Below are positions 40,326 through 49,949 of a stretch of DNA of 64,000 nt, one piece after another (positions within the stretch are counted from its first letter, which is position 1; every line of letters starts with the position of its first letter). The DNA comes from Spirochaetota bacterium (GTDB lineage: Bacteria; Spirochaetota; Spirochaetia; SZUA-6). The stretch is from the NCBI GenBank assembly GCA_013151965.1, contig JAADHF010000131.1, positions 193,763-257,762 on the forward strand, written 5' to 3'. The notes beneath the pieces were generated by a model. The model ran no database searches. It saw nothing but the letters and a program-made list of their open reading frames with translations, and was not told the origin of the DNA. The position numbers and the translations under genes were made by a program.

Positions 40326-41582
40326 ATGAGTCAGGAAAATCTTAATCCCTTCGCAATTGCCCAGCAGCAGCTTGATGAGGCGGCAAGGATTCTTAAGCTG
40401 GATGAAGCAACACATCAGATGCTCAGATGGCCGGTTAGAGAGCTTCATGTAAGTCTGCCTGTACGGATGGATGACGGGAGTATACAGGTTTTTAAGGGTT
40501 TCAGGGTACAGTACAATGATTCACGGGGGCCTACAAAAGGAGGAATCCGTTTTCATCCGGCGGAGACGATAGATACGGTAAGGGCTCTTGCAGCCTGGAT
40601 GACATGGAAAACAGCCGTTGTGGATATTCCACTCGGCGGAGGAAAGGGAGGGGTTATCTGCAATCCGAAGGAAATGAGCAAGTACGAACTGGAACGTCTT
40701 TCCAGGCAGTATATCAGGCAGGTCGGCAGGCTTATCGGACCCGCAAAGGATGTGCCGGCACCGGATGTTTATACAACTCCGCAGATTATGTCGTGGATGA
40801 TGGATGAGTTCTACTGGCAGCAGGGTTACAATGCCTTTGGTGTAATTACAGGCAAACCCCTTGCCATAGGAGGTTCAAAGGGCAGGGGAGACGCCACTGC
40901 ACGGGGAGGTGTTTTCTGTGTCAGAGAGGCCTGTAAAAAACTGGATATCGACCCGACTAAAGTAACGTATGCCGTACAGGGTTTCGGCAATGCAGGTCAA
41001 TTTGCAGCAACATTGATGAAAGAACTTCTCGGTGCGGATAAACTTGTTGCTGTTTCCGATTCCCGCAGCGGTGTTTACAGTGCTGATGGTCTGGATCCTG
41101 AAAAACTTGTCGAGTATAAACTAAAGAACGGAAAAGTAAGCGGATTCCCCGGGGCAGAGTCGATCAGCAATGAGGAACTCCTTGAATTGGATGTGGATGT
41201 TCTTATTCCTGCTGCATTGGAAAATCAGATTACAGCGGATAATGCAGCCAGGATAAAAGCCCGGATCTCTGCGGAATTGGCAAACGGGCCCACTACCCCC
41301 GAAGCTGACAAAATTCTCTACGACAGAAATGTATTTGTAATTCCTGATTTTCTATGTAATGCAGGCGGGGTAACGGTAAGTTACTTTGAACAGGTTCAGA
41401 ATGCTTACAACTACTACTGGACCATAGATGATGTGTATAAAAGGCTCGATCAGAAAATGACGGATGCATTCCGGAATGTGTACGAAAATTCTCTGGAGTA
41501 TAGTGTAGATATGAGGAAAGCAGCATATATTGTGGCTGTGTCGCGTGTGGCGGAAGCGATGAAACTTCGAGGCTGGGTGTAG
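40326..41582 (+). CDS. gdhA: Glutamate dehydrogenase (Glu/Leu/Phe/Val family, hexameric type)
   Basis: A 418-aa enzyme interconverting glutamate and 2-oxoglutarate plus ammonia. Substrate-site motifs [11 protein letters not shown] and [12 protein letters not shown] and the Rossmann motif [13 protein letters not shown] are clear, and the length fits the RocG/GudB-like class. AAGGAG precedes the ATG. It is monocistronic with a strong terminator at 41624-41688. Cofactor preference cannot be read safely. A second, unrelated large NAD-type GDH lies at 47061. Confidence 0.93.
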
Positions 41583-41783: not shown

Positions 41784-42200
41784 GTGTTTTTTTTATTCCC
41801 CTTTGGGTTTTTCGGAACATTTATAATAATATTTTTGGCCCTCAGAATCGGCAAAAGACTTTTCAGAGACCTGTTCGAGGATGACCGGGAGATTTCTCCG
41901 GGATGGAAGCGAAGTTTCCGTAATTCGAGATTATTCGACAATCTGAACGCAAAGAGTTTTACAGTTAAAAAGCCCAGGGATGCCCAGCACCAGATATTTC
42001 GATTGGCCAATAAAATGCACGGCAGGCTGACTGTATCCGATATTGTTATCAATACAGGTATCAGTATCAAGGAAGCAGAGGAAACGATGAATAAAATGGT
42101 GGATGGTATGAGGGTGCGTATGGAAGTTGATGACAGGGGAATAGTCATATATGAATTTCCCGAAATAATTGCCGGATACGAGGATAAGAATACATATTGA
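41784..42200 (+). CDS. Membrane-anchored protein with winged-helix-like tail, unknown
   Basis: A 138-aa protein: a Phe-rich N-terminal membrane helix (2-20), a basic linker and, from about residue 70, a pattern like a winged helix (LANKMHGRLTVSDIVINTG, then ISIKEAEETMNKMV) ending in a short strand region. GTG 41784 has AGGGAGA 5-6 nt upstream; the nearby ATG at 41782 is out of frame. Its stop overlaps the cobO start, so it is coupled to that gene. Role unknown; the context is cofactor and nickel metabolism. Confidence 0.7.
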   Translation: MFFLFPFGFFGTFIIIFLALRIGKRLFRDLFEDDREISPGWKRSFRNSRLFDNLNAKSFTVKKPRDAQHQIFRLANKMHGRLTVSDIVINTGISIKEAEETMNKMVDGMRVRMEVDDRGIVIYEFPEIIAGYEDKNTY

Positions 42201-42715
42201 CGAAAGGGTACGTTCAGGTTTATACCGGCAACGGAAAAGGGAAGACGACTGCCGCTTTCGGTGTTGCCGTAAGAATGCTTGGAGCCGGGTACAGGGTTTT
42301 TATAGGCCAATTCCTTAAAAAGGGTTTATACTCCGAACTTAAAGGTTTTAAAAGGTGGGGCGGTTCTATTTCCATCGAACAATTCGGAAGCGGCCGGTTT
42401 GTCGGCAAAGATGCTACAGTTAAAGACAGAAAACTCGCAGAAGAAGGTCTCGAAAGATGCTGGAAGGCCATCCGGAGCGGCGAATACGATCTTGTAATTT
42501 TAGATGAGTTAAATGCAGCTCTTTCCCTGGGAATTATTAAATTCGATACTGTCAGGCGGTTGTTACACGAAAAACCGGATAATGTGGAGCTGATACTCAC
42601 AGGCAGGGGGGCACCTCCAGAGCTGATTAACGAGGCTGATCTTGTCACGGAGATGGTGGAGATAAAACATTACTACGGCTCAAATGTTTCAGCCAGGACC
42701 GGTATCGAGAAGTGA
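42197..42715 (+). CDS. cobO: Cob(I)alamin / corrinoid adenosyltransferase (CobO/BtuR type)
   Basis: A 172-aa P-loop enzyme that adenosylates corrinoids with ATP to form the coenzyme B12 ligand. Motifs are VYTGNGKGKTTAAFG (modified Walker A), YDLVILDELNAALSLG and LTGRGAPPELINEADLVTEM, all typical of CobO. The start is TTG overlapping the previous stop (TTGA). No other cobalamin gene is in the window. It sits in an apparent operon with hypA and an archaeal-type hypB. Confidence 0.92.
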   Translation: MTKGYVQVYTGNGKGKTTAAFGVAVRMLGAGYRVFIGQFLKKGLYSELKGFKRWGGSISIEQFGSGRFVGKDATVKDRKLAEEGLERCWKAIRSGEYDLVILDELNAALSLGIIKFDTVRRLLHEKPDNVELILTGRGAPPELINEADLVTEMVEIKHYYGSNVSARTGIEK

Positions 42716-42730
42716 ATTCAGGAGATAGTA

Positions 42731-43156
42731 ATGCATGAATGGGCGCTTGCAGATGCAGTTGTTTCCACGGTAGAGGAAAAAGTAGGGAAGCGGAATTTAT
42801 CAATATTAAAAGAAGTGCATATCAGACTCGGTGAGCTTCAGAATATCGACCGGGAAATATTTGTTACAGGTCTTAAAATGATGCTTCGGGGTAAGCAGTG
42901 CGGCCTTGAAGTATTTAAAATCGATATGGAAGAAGCGGGGTTTAAGTGTAATTACTGCGAAACGGAGTGGAAACTAAACGGATATCCCGGGATCGGTGAA
43001 GATGAGCGCGAGGCAATACATTTTCTGCCGGAATCCGCCCATGCATATATGCAGTGTCCGAAATGCGGCAGTTCTGATTTTACAGTTGCAGCCGGCAGGG
43101 GTGTGTTAATTGAAAGTATCGAACTGAACGGTCAGGAGCCGACATACAATGATTGA
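42731..43156 (+). CDS. hypA: HypA nickel chaperone, archaeal (Thermococcus-like) form
   Basis: A 141-aa nickel metallochaperone for [NiFe] hydrogenase maturation. It begins MHEWALADAVVSTVEEKV, with the Ni-binding His2, and has two zinc Cys pairs (CNYC and CPKC). The pairs are separated by a long insert (about 42 residues) as in Thermococcus HypA; ordinary bacterial HypA is about 115 aa and starts MHEL/MHEM. GGAGA precedes the ATG. Its stop overlaps the next start by 8 bp. No hydrogenase structural gene is in view. Confidence 0.88.
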   Translation: MHEWALADAVVSTVEEKVGKRNLSILKEVHIRLGELQNIDREIFVTGLKMMLRGKQCGLEVFKIDMEEAGFKCNYCETEWKLNGYPGIGEDEREAIHFLPESAHAYMQCPKCGSSDFTVAAGRGVLIESIELNGQEPTYND

Positions 43157-43886
43157 CCCCAGGACATCCGTTGTGGAAAAAAGGCTTAAGAATGTTAAAC
43201 GAATAATTGTAGTATCCAGCGGCAAGGGCGGAGTAGGCAAGAGTGTCTTTTCTTCAGTTGCCGCCCTTCTGTCTGCAGAGAAGGGATTAAAAACCGGGCT
43301 TTTAGATCTTGATTTTCAGGGGTCTTCCGACCATATAATCCTCGGTGAAAAGGTTTCTCTTCCCGAGGAATCGGAAGGAATATGTCCTTTAAGACTATCG
43401 AGCGGAATAGATTTTGTAAGCTTTTCCCTGTTTACAGGCGAATCACCTCTGCCTCTGCGCGGCAAAGATACTACGAATGCAATTTTAGAACTGCTGGCAG
43501 TAACAATCTGGAAGGAACTTGACTTTTTGATTGTGGATTTACCGCCCGGAATAGGCGAGGAAATTCTGGATATTATAAGATTTATACAGAGGAAGGAGTT
43601 TATAATTGTATCTTCTTCGTCTTTAGTTTCCGTACAGGTTGTGGAGAGGCTGGTAAATCTTTTACAGAGTATGAATCTTCCTGTAACGGGAATTGTCGAG
43701 AATATGGCCATGGATTCGGTACATCATGTATCGGATATGTCGGAAAAATACGGATTGCCTCTTCTCGGCACCATTCCCTATTTCCCGGAGCTGGAAAGTG
43801 AGATTGGCGACTCAAAAAAACTTCTTAAAGGGAATTTTGCAAAATATCTTAATGCTGTTGTAAAAAATATGTTTAAAACTAAATAA
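43149..43886 (+). CDS. Mrp/MinD-family ATPase, archaeal-type HypB
   Basis: A 245-aa deviant-Walker ATPase: SSGKGGVGKSVFSS, LLDLDFQGSSDHIILG and FLIVDLPPGIGEEILDIIRF. The start MIDPR and the motifs SSDHIILG and PLRGKDTT recall the Thermococcus Mrp-family HypB, which forms an ATP-dependent complex with HypA for nickel transfer. It overlaps hypA by 8 bp. Bacterial HypB is a different, His-rich GTPase of the SIMIBI class. An Fe-S carrier Mrp role is an alternative, but the hypA overlap argues for nickel. Confidence 0.82.
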   Translation: MIDPRTSVVEKRLKNVKRIIVVSSGKGGVGKSVFSSVAALLSAEKGLKTGLLDLDFQGSSDHIILGEKVSLPEESEGICPLRLSSGIDFVSFSLFTGESPLPLRGKDTTNAILELLAVTIWKELDFLIVDLPPGIGEEILDIIRFIQRKEFIIVSSSSLVSVQVVERLVNLLQSMNLPVTGIVENMAMDSVHHVSDMSEKYGLPLLGTIPYFPELESEIGDSKKLLKGNFAKYLNAVVKNMFKTK

Positions 43887-47060: not shown

Positions 47061-49949
47061 ATGAATAGTCTAAAAGAAATTGCCGGTTCTTCATGTCTGC
47101 CGCTGGAAGATATAGCTGTCATTGAAGAAGCTCTTCTAAAAACAGGGTATTTTACAACTGAAAGGGCAAGACTGGAACTAAAATGGTTTGCCGTTGATCT
47201 CGGAATAGATGAGTACTATTTTAAAACTTCAGGCACAAAAGAGATTGCCGAACATCTCATAGCATTAAGTGCTTCCAAACTGGTTTCGGAGCATGGAGGA
47301 GCCGGTTTCGGTGTACAGTTGATCAACGAAAGGGATAACAGGGCTACATATATTGTGGAAGAAGAATCTTCCAGAACAGAAGAAATAGAAAAGAGGATAG
47401 AACAGCGTTATCCTATGTTCAGAATAGAGAGTTATCAGGCAAAAGGGGGCAGCCGTCCTCCTGCTTTGCGGTTCTATATAGTAACAAAACCTGTTTTTAA
47501 AAAGTCTTCCGAAGATAATAAAAAGAATACCTTCGAAACTGCAGCCGGCCTGGCTTTTTTATCAAGATCCGCAGGTGAAACAATTGCGCGGTACAAGAAG
47601 GCCTGGGAGGCTATGAATAGAAGAGAATCTCCGTATATTTCGATTACCGGCAAACCCGATACAAACGAAACAAGAGTAATGGTCGGGATCCATGGTTCGG
47701 GGAAAAGGCAGTTTTTAACGAATTTTTCTCATCTTCTTTACAAATACGGTATTAATTCCAATAGAAAGTACAGGGAGATTTTTACCGACAATAAGCGGAT
47801 ATACTCGTATTACTTTGATAAAATGGAAGCGGATGTTATTGAGGAATTCTCACGCGACCTTAATGCTGTTGTAATGCTGCCGGAAAATCCGGTAACACAG
47901 CTTTTCCTCGATGAAAAATATTCTGCTCAGGAAACCATGTACGCGATTTCCGCTGCAATGTTTACCCATCAATTCATGTCCATACTTACGGAAGAATACA
48001 TCGCCATGGAGAAAGCTGTAAAAGATCAGCCGGAAGTAAAAGGTATTCTTGATAATTTCAGGCTGCTCCTTATTAAAGATACCTTTTCTTCCTCGATGAT
48101 CGCACAGACCGTGTTAAAACATTATAAAATAGTTTCCCTCCTGTACTCCAGTTTTCTTGAAAAATTCGAAAAGCGGAGCAGAGCGGAAAATCACAAAAAA
48201 TTAAAAGAAAAAATAGTATCGGTAATCGAACGCGATGTTCCGTCGAACAGGGATAGAACCATACTTAAATATTTCTTAACCTTTAATGAATCGATTTTAA
48301 AAACAAATTTTACTATGAGAGATAAAACCTGTATGGCCTACAGGCTGGAACCTTCCTTTCTTAACAGAGTGGATTTCCCGGAGAAGGTGTTCGGACTCTT
48401 TTTCCTTGTGGGCAGAGAATTTATCGGGTTTCATATACGTTTTCGTGATATTGCGCGCGGAGGCATAAGAATCGTTAAATCACGGAATATCGATTCGTAC
48501 TATCATAATGTAGATACCATATTTTTCGAAAACTACAACCTTGCATCAACACAGCAGAAAAAAAACAAGGATATACCGGAAGGCGGTTCTAAAGGGACTA
48601 TTCTTCTTAATATTACAAATCAGAATGAAGAAGAGAGGGCATTTAAAAGTTATATCGATGGAATATTAGACATAGTAATGCCTTCTGATAATATTAAGGA
48701 CTTCTACGGCAGAAAAGAGATCCTCTTTATGGGCCCGGATGAAAGGACAGCAGGTTTAATGGACTGGGCGGCTCTATATGCAAAGAGGAGGGGTTTTCCT
48801 TTCTGGAAAGCATTTACAACAGGCAAATCACCGGAAATCGGCGGTATTCCCCATGATATGTACGGAATGACGACAATAGGGATTCATGAGTATGTTTTAG
48901 GTGTACTCGGGAAATTGGGACTGGAGGAGAGCGGCATAACAAAGGTTCTGACCGGAGGCCCGGACGGCGATCTGGGAAGCAACGAAATAAGGATATCCCG
49001 TGATAAAACTCTTGTTATTATCGATGGCAGCGGCGTTTTGTACGACCCGGAAGGGTTAAACAGGGAAGAGCTTAATAAACTTGCAGTTAAACGGGTAACT
49101 GCGGAAGAGTACAACCGGAATCTTCTCTCCAAACAGGGGTTTTTTGTATCCGTTAATGATAAAGAGATAAAGCTGCCGGACGGTGCCTTTGTTTCTAACG
49201 GCGAAGATCTTAGAAACAAATTTCATCTTGACCCGAGGGCAAGTGCGGATATTCTGGTGCCCTGCGGCGGCAGGCCGGGAGCTGTTAATATATCTAACTG
49301 GAAGGGGCTGTTCAGGAAGGACGGCACTCCCAAATTCAGGGCAATTGTCGAAGGGGCAAATCTGTTTATAACGGAGGATGCGCGGCTCAGGCTGGAAGAG
49401 AACGGGATAATTCTTTTTAAAGATGCTTCCACGAACAAGGGGGGTGTAACATCATCCTCCCTGGAGGTCTTTGCATCGCTTGCACTCGGCGATGATGAGT
49501 TTAACGAACACATGAGGGTACACAACGGGAAATTATCTGATTTCAGGAAAGTATATATCGAAGAGATTATAGCAACGATAAAGAAAAATGCCAGGGCGGA
49601 GTTTAATCTTTTGTGGACTGAGCACGAACAAAGCGGAGTCCCTTTTACAATTCTTACAAATGAGATAAGTAAAAAAATAAACAGGATTACGGATTCTATC
49701 TATGCCTCGGAGCTGTCGGAACCATCGGAGCTGTCGGGCAGTCACAGGCTGAAAGAGATTGTAATAGAGAAATATTCTCCTGATGTGCTGATTAAACTTA
49801 CCGGCCTGGATAACATTATAAAGAGGGTTCCTGATAATTATCTTAACGCTGTATTTGCAACAAAAATTGCGACCGATTTTGTTTACAATTTCGGTCTGCA
49901 TTCAACTGAGATAGACTTTTACAGATTTTTAGAGAGCCTTAAAGGATAA
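47061..49949 (+). CDS. Large NAD-specific glutamate dehydrogenase (about 110 kDa type)
   Basis: A 962-aa enzyme of the large NAD-GDH class known from fungi, protists and some bacteria. The catalytic part lies in the second half: FIGFHIRFRDIARGGIRIVK, GSKGTILLNI, GPDERTAGLMDWAALYAKRR and the Rossmann-side GGPDGDLGSNEI. The first half (about 1-400) is a regulatory-type region without known motifs. AGGAGAT precedes the ATG. This class works mainly in glutamate breakdown; here it sits next to sugar uptake genes. It is not related closely to the 418-aa GDH at 40326. Confidence 0.88.
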   Translation: MNSLKEIAGSSCLPLEDIAVIEEALLKTGYFTTERARLELKWFAVDLGIDEYYFKTSGTKEIAEHLIALSASKLVSEHGGAGFGVQLINERDNRATYIVEEESSRTEEIEKRIEQRYPMFRIESYQAKGGSRPPALRFYIVTKPVFKKSSEDNKKNTFETAAGLAFLSRSAGETIARYKKAWEAMNRRESPYISITGKPDTNETRVMVGIHGSGKRQFLTNFSHLLYKYGINSNRKYREIFTDNKRIYSYYFDKMEADVIEEFSRDLNAVVMLPENPVTQLFLDEKYSAQETMYAISAAMFTHQFMSILTEEYIAMEKAVKDQPEVKGILDNFRLLLIKDTFSSSMIAQTVLKHYKIVSLLYSSFLEKFEKRSRAENHKKLKEKIVSVIERDVPSNRDRTILKYFLTFNESILKTNFTMRDKTCMAYRLEPSFLNRVDFPEKVFGLFFLVGREFIGFHIRFRDIARGGIRIVKSRNIDSYYHNVDTIFFENYNLASTQQKKNKDIPEGGSKGTILLNITNQNEEERAFKSYIDGILDIVMPSDNIKDFYGRKEILFMGPDERTAGLMDWAALYAKRRGFPFWKAFTTGKSPEIGGIPHDMYGMTTIGIHEYVLGVLGKLGLEESGITKVLTGGPDGDLGSNEIRISRDKTLVIIDGSGVLYDPEGLNREELNKLAVKRVTAEEYNRNLLSKQGFFVSVNDKEIKLPDGAFVSNGEDLRNKFHLDPRASADILVPCGGRPGAVNISNWKGLFRKDGTPKFRAIVEGANLFITEDARLRLEENGIILFKDASTNKGGVTSSSLEVFASLALGDDEFNEHMRVHNGKLSDFRKVYIEEIIATIKKNARAEFNLLWTEHEQSGVPFTILTNEISKKINRITDSIYASELSEPSELSGSHRLKEIVIEKYSPDVLIKLTGLDNIIKRVPDNYLNAVFATKIATDFVYNFGLHSTEIDFYRFLESLKG

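Follow-up and report, generated by a model that had tools for sequence, protein, structure and literature searches.

The window, that is, the whole 64,000-nucleotide stretch of DNA analysed, contains a hypA gene and a hypB gene whose ORFs overlap by 8 bases, preceded by a corrinoid adenosyltransferase gene and an ORF referred to here as orf138. These features are as follows:

41784-42200, + strand: orf138, with an N-terminal hydrophobic helix and a C-terminal winged-helix domain
42197-42715, + strand: CobO/BtuR-type corrinoid adenosyltransferase, directly upstream of hypA (PF02572, 202 bits)
42731-43156, + strand: long (Thermococcus-type) HypA, 141 aa (matches to NF003008 and to T. kodakarensis HypA, 3a43)
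43149-43886, + strand: ATPase-type (Mrp/MinD-type) HypB, 245 aa (match to T. kodakarensis HypB, 3vx3/5aun; member of the Tk-HypB clade)

Identity of HypA and HypB

The translated HypA starts with MHEWALADA. The original prediction described it as an archaeal-type long HypA with a long insert between its cysteine pairs, and both points were confirmed. Against the long-HypA family model NF003008 (NCBIfam; PRK03824) it scored 152.5 bits, above the curated cut-off of 125, whereas its score against the ordinary HypA model TIGR00100 was 53 bits, below the cut-off of 88. The best solved relative was T. kodakarensis (Tk) HypA (3a43, E = 1.7e-29), and H. pylori HypA was a far weaker match in the structure database (E = 5e-4). 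The zinc site is formed by C73xxC76 and C109xxC112, with 32 residues between the two pairs, the long spacing that marks the Thermococcus type. The putative nickel site comprises M1-H2-E3 and H97 (codon at 43019-43021), the latter at the position of Tk His98; H2, E3, the four zinc cysteines, and H97 were kept in all 48 aligned long HypA sequences. An AlphaFold model of HypA (pLDDT 89) had the HypAB and HypAB-Ni complexes 5aup and 5aun as its first structural matches, in agreement with membership of the HypA fold.

HypB starts with MIDPR and carries a deviant Walker A motif, SSGKGGVGKS. Family models alone would name it merely an Mrp/ParA-type ATPase: it matched the general Mrp/NUBPL ATPase family of Pfam (PF10609) and fell below the cut-offs of the Fe-S carrier models MrpORP (150 vs 450 bits) and ApbC (99 vs 348 bits). 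Comparison with solved structures revealed a match to TkHypB (3vx3/5aun; E = 3e-67, 230 bits, residues 2-233) over the whole length, as expected if the two genes are the HypAB pair of Thermococcus that had been proposed; the TkHypB structures matched included the HypAB complexes 5aun-5auq, and the runners-up were archaeal Mrp proteins (E = 2e-27, 99 bits).

Phylogenetic analysis placed HypB in the Tk-HypB clade, separated from Mrp proteins with 100/100 support. The MinD-type Walker A (KGGVGK) was present in all 48 HypB rows of the alignment. The Mrp-type Fe-S CxxC was absent from the window HypB and from every other bacterial member (0/14, the window's included); it was seen in 7 of the 11 Mrp rows, the other four also being without it. 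Moreover, a long HypA gene immediately preceded this HypB in the window and in each of the 46 distinct complete loci. The PF10609 match and the weak MrpORP match would be expected of an ordinary Mrp/ApbC Fe-S carrier lying beside hypA by chance, but the score (both against the MrpORP cut-off and for TkHypB over Mrp), the separate clade, and the missing motif largely refute this reading, and the constant adjacency to long HypA also speaks against it; we regard it as very improbable. On these sequence comparisons, it is near certain that the pair is a HypAB of the Tk type.

Hydrogenase genes and gene neighbourhood

The genome that contains the window is 3.6 Mb in 143 contigs, 94% complete with 3% estimated contamination. 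The original prediction called it spirochaete-like, which agrees with an apparently spirochaete-like flagellin in G047 (L041), a genome from the same phylum. It has a single hypA and no second one, and a search with the GTPase HypB model TIGR00073 gave no match at E 0.001 anywhere in the genome; the same search finds hypB in 12 of 14 control genomes, E. coli among them. GTPase hypB was not found in any of the four genomes of the window's family (f1) either. This bacterium has no HypA or HypB besides the pair, with some residual chance that a GTPase hypB lies on sequence missing from the 143-contig, 94% complete assembly. A canonical HypB elsewhere in the genome would have counted against the original prediction; none was found, though a [NiFe] hydrogenase and other hyp genes are present.

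The hydrogenase is encoded on contig C83 by a four-gene operon (alpha-delta-gamma-beta) together with a HycI-type maturation protease. Its four subunits are those of a Group 3b (sulfhydrogenase-type) [NiFe] hydrogenase; the best NCBIfam hydrogenase models were the sulfhydrogenase ones, though the scores were far below their narrow cut-offs. Both CxxC nickel motifs of the large subunit are present (RICGIC and DPCISC), and the solved structure nearest to this subunit is TkHyhL in the HyhL-HypA complex (5yxy). HypC, HypD, HypE, and the end of HypF are encoded on contig C51, and the pair is not adjacent to the hydrogenase or to other hyp genes in this genome.

Two further loci were observed. What appears to be left of another hyp cluster lies on contig C48 (L010:851-1254), where a second hypC precedes a hypD shortened to 64 aa. 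Contig C90:1-3811 (L008) encodes a complex I/group 4-like large subunit with a NuoL-like membrane subunit; the nickel CxxC motifs are apparently missing from this large subunit, so the complex is probably an energy-converting hydrogenase-related one.

The gene order GDH, orf138, cobO, hypA, hypB was found in four f1 genomes. Three more genomes of the window's family, two of them in its genus, share this arrangement, so that chance and assembly error are excluded as explanations. The number of contigs and the 3% estimated contamination could raise the suspicion that this stretch of contig is archaeal contamination of the metagenome bin. This synteny, which includes GDH and orf138, and the occurrence of the pair in G303, a genome of the order assembled as one contig of 4.8 Mb, speak against this, and the nearest relatives by far, at 89% and 72% identity, belong to the same genus; the chance of contamination is negligible.

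The cobO gene keeps its position in all four f1 genomes and is absent beside the pair in the f57 and f58 loci, and a link between CobO and nickel insertion is doubtful. The orf138 product had no match in Pfam or NCBIfam. Two f57 genomes have its gene immediately before hypA; in the four f1 genomes cobO stands between them. The structure model had a pLDDT of 68 (about 85 in the C-terminal half), and its winged-helix matches were weak; it is possible that orf138 is a regulator or partner of the pair. The motif YEFPEII near its C-terminus was invariant in the orf138 sequences of families f1 and f57.

Several other neighbours were recorded. Two different glutamate dehydrogenases flank the window pair: one of 418 aa at 40326-41582, for which the best model was archaeal GdhA (619 bits, below the cut-off of 750), and a large one of 962 aa at 47061-49949, named by eye. 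The f57 loci have a 448-aa glutamate dehydrogenase right after hypB, and in f57 genomes cysteine desulfurase-like and ThiI-like genes, named by eye, diverge from orf138-hypA-hypB (L131:7284-9694, L136:1825-4208). A similar desulfurase-like gene, also identified by eye, is present in the f58 loci.

Neighbours in three other genomes link the pair with nickel and hydrogenase. In one f58 genome (G309), hypA-hypB lead into an operon of NuoE/F-like, small-subunit, and large-subunit hydrogenase genes, with hypF nearby; in another genome (G300), a CbiM-CbiQ-ABC (CbiMQO-type) cobalt/nickel transporter diverges from the pair; and in a Nitrososphaeria archaeon hypF, hypA, and hypB stand in a row with a protease and a hydrogenase alongside.

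Distribution and origin of the pair

Because matches to the Walker A pattern dominated a contig scan with the HypB alignment, that scan served to find some archaeal relatives, and the distribution was taken from genome samples. Long HypA above the cut-off was present in 3 of 296 genomes across the window's phylum, two of those in another family (f38). Within the window's order it was present in 11 of 26 genomes belonging to three families (f1, 4/4; f57, 4/7; f58, 3/3), in line with the suggestion in the original prediction of an overlooked bacterial branch of the system. GTPase HypB above the cut-off was found in all five f59 genomes, all three f60 genomes, and one f58 genome (G308), and the two types were mutually exclusive in all carriers of the order except G308. 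That genome has the ATPase-type pair, a short HypA with GTPase HypB, and several [NiFe] large-subunit matches (L134, L207), which suits it to testing whether the two pairs serve separate clients.

All 11 long-HypA carriers of the order had a [NiFe] large-subunit match, and four f56 genomes had no long HypA, no HypB above the cut-off, and no [NiFe] large subunit. In two f57 genomes that are 82-83% complete (G304 and G306) a hydrogenase was present and no HypA was found, probably owing to missing sequence. With cobO next door in the four f1 genomes and the hydrogenase on another contig, the pair could be thought to serve another metal enzyme (e.g., CO dehydrogenase or a cobalt/corrinoid pathway), the hydrogenase being matured without HypB. 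However, cobO is not beside the pair in the other two carrier families, the pair lies inside a hydrogenase operon in G309, it co-occurs with the [NiFe] large subunit in every carrier of the order and is missing together with the enzyme from the f56 genomes, and it replaces GTPase HypB across families. A different client therefore seems improbable.

Outside the phylum, long HypA was found in 2 of 400 genomes of a Chloroflexi phylum, in none of 399 of a Bacillota phylum, and in 86 of 300 Thermoproteota genomes; the five archaeal genomes examined that carry the pair all lacked GTPase HypB above the cut-off. Plasmid-borne spread was considered and rejected, as PLSDB contained no long HypA and its lone match, annotated as HypA, had 26% identity.

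With distant Mrp proteins as the root and an archaeal sample of mostly Thermoproteota, the HypB tree had a single Tk-type clade (100/100), with the order's sequences in one clade (99/96) and the f38 pair sister to Thermococcus (100/95). Across the trees, three bacterial groups sit separately among archaeal sequences. The joint HypA+HypB tree rejected one clade of all bacteria (AU p 0.005), one clade of the two Spirochaetota groups (p 0.008), and one clade of archaea (p 0.004); the corresponding p values for HypB alone were 0.04, 0.15, and 0.007.

Two histories were weighed against these trees. The pair may be old in bacteria, passed on by vertical inheritance with many losses and not acquired from archaea; its presence in at least two bacterial phyla and the single clade of the order's sequences fit this account. 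Against it stand the rejection of both bacterial clades in the joint tree (less marked for HypB alone), the sister position of the f38 pair to Thermococcus, and the very patchy occurrence of the pair in bacteria when it is common in Thermoproteota. Old bacterial descent is accordingly the unlikely course, and transfer, which the original prediction had named as one explanation, is the probable one. The trees suggest at least two, and probably three, entries of the pair into bacteria, with vertical descent afterwards in the order. The direction of transfer is that indicated by the Mrp-rooted tree with its mostly Thermoproteota archaeal sample.

The large subunit in the window's genome shares 46-50% identity with its f59 and f60 counterparts and 34% with TkHyhL, so it is the loading kit, and not the enzyme, that looks archaeal. 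In f60 the hydrogenase large subunit is in one operon with a short HypA and a GTPase HypB. In f57 and f58 the pair is used alongside a different, diaphorase-linked hydrogenase.

Proposed function and comparison with known systems

The HypA-HypB structures of T. kodakarensis (3a43, 3vx3, and 5aun-5auq) are those of Sasaki 2013 and Watanabe 2015, as reviewed (PMC7055735, PMC9164220). In the Tk HypAB complex, nickel is bound by the HypA N-terminal amine, His2, and His98; Tk HypB is a dimer whose ATP hydrolysis is stimulated by HypA, and the complex is 2:2 (PMC7055735). The reviews found describe ATPase-type HypB only from archaea or from unnamed "some organisms" (PMC7055735, PMC9164220, PMC12134894). 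We found no open-access paper on a bacterial ATPase-type HypB, though the original Tk papers of 2013 and 2015 could mention bacterial homologues, and no biochemistry for any bacterial member was found in the literature.

We interpret the pair as the nickel-insertion kit of this bacterium, a Thermococcus-type HypA-HypB (probability about 0.9, judged from the genes). Nickel binding, ATP hydrolysis, and docking are assigned by homology with the Tk system. ATP-bound HypB would dimerise and hold two HypA molecules, and H97 of each HypA would be brought beside the N-terminal amine and H2 to form a tight nickel site; nanomolar binding of nickel by the HypAB complex is a mark of the long-HypA class. 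Upon ATP hydrolysis, nickel-loaded HypA would be released and would dock on the immature [NiFe] hydrogenase large subunit, after HypC-F have inserted the Fe(CN)2CO group, and the HycI-type protease would then close the hydrogenase site. An ancestor of the three families of the order would have acquired the pair from archaea or an archaea-like source and passed it on by descent.

A known archaeal machine, its activity inferred, thus serves as the sole HypB in a clade of uncultured, spirochaete-like bacteria; what is new is the host range and the replacement, not the mechanism. Sister families have the GTPase and a similar hydrogenase, which suggests that either nickel-loading kit can take the place of the other in nature; the order offers a natural experiment on the role of the nucleotide switch. 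Furthermore, a bacterial genome without GTPase hypB need not be without the maturation pathway. More speculatively, the archaeal ATPase HypAB may be a plug-in nickel module that was taken up by bacteria three times or more and displaced the GTPase pair in this order while the resident hydrogenase stayed bacterial, with membrane-anchored winged-helix orf138 as a new partner or regulator.

Among known systems, the T. kodakarensis pair is the closest in kind (42% identity for HypA and 47% for HypB). The two share a long HypA with MHE and an extra histidine (98 in Tk, 97 here), an Mrp/MinD-type ATPase that starts with IDPR, and the same type of client, a cytosolic sulfhydrogenase-like enzyme (HyhL in Tk). 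They differ in that the present pair has a bacterial host and has GDH, orf138, and CobO as neighbours. The canonical HypA and GTPase HypB (TIGR00100 and TIGR00073), as in f59 and f60, have the same task of delivering nickel to [NiFe] hydrogenase, and there they serve the relative of the window genome's enzyme described above; the canonical pair differs in its short HypA and G3E-kind GTPase and is absent from the window's genome. The Mrp/ApbC carriers (2ph1, 3kb1, MrpORP) belong to the same P-loop ATPase superfamily, with a deviant Walker A, whereas most of them have the CxxC Fe-S site, and all fall in another clade and are unlinked to HypA.
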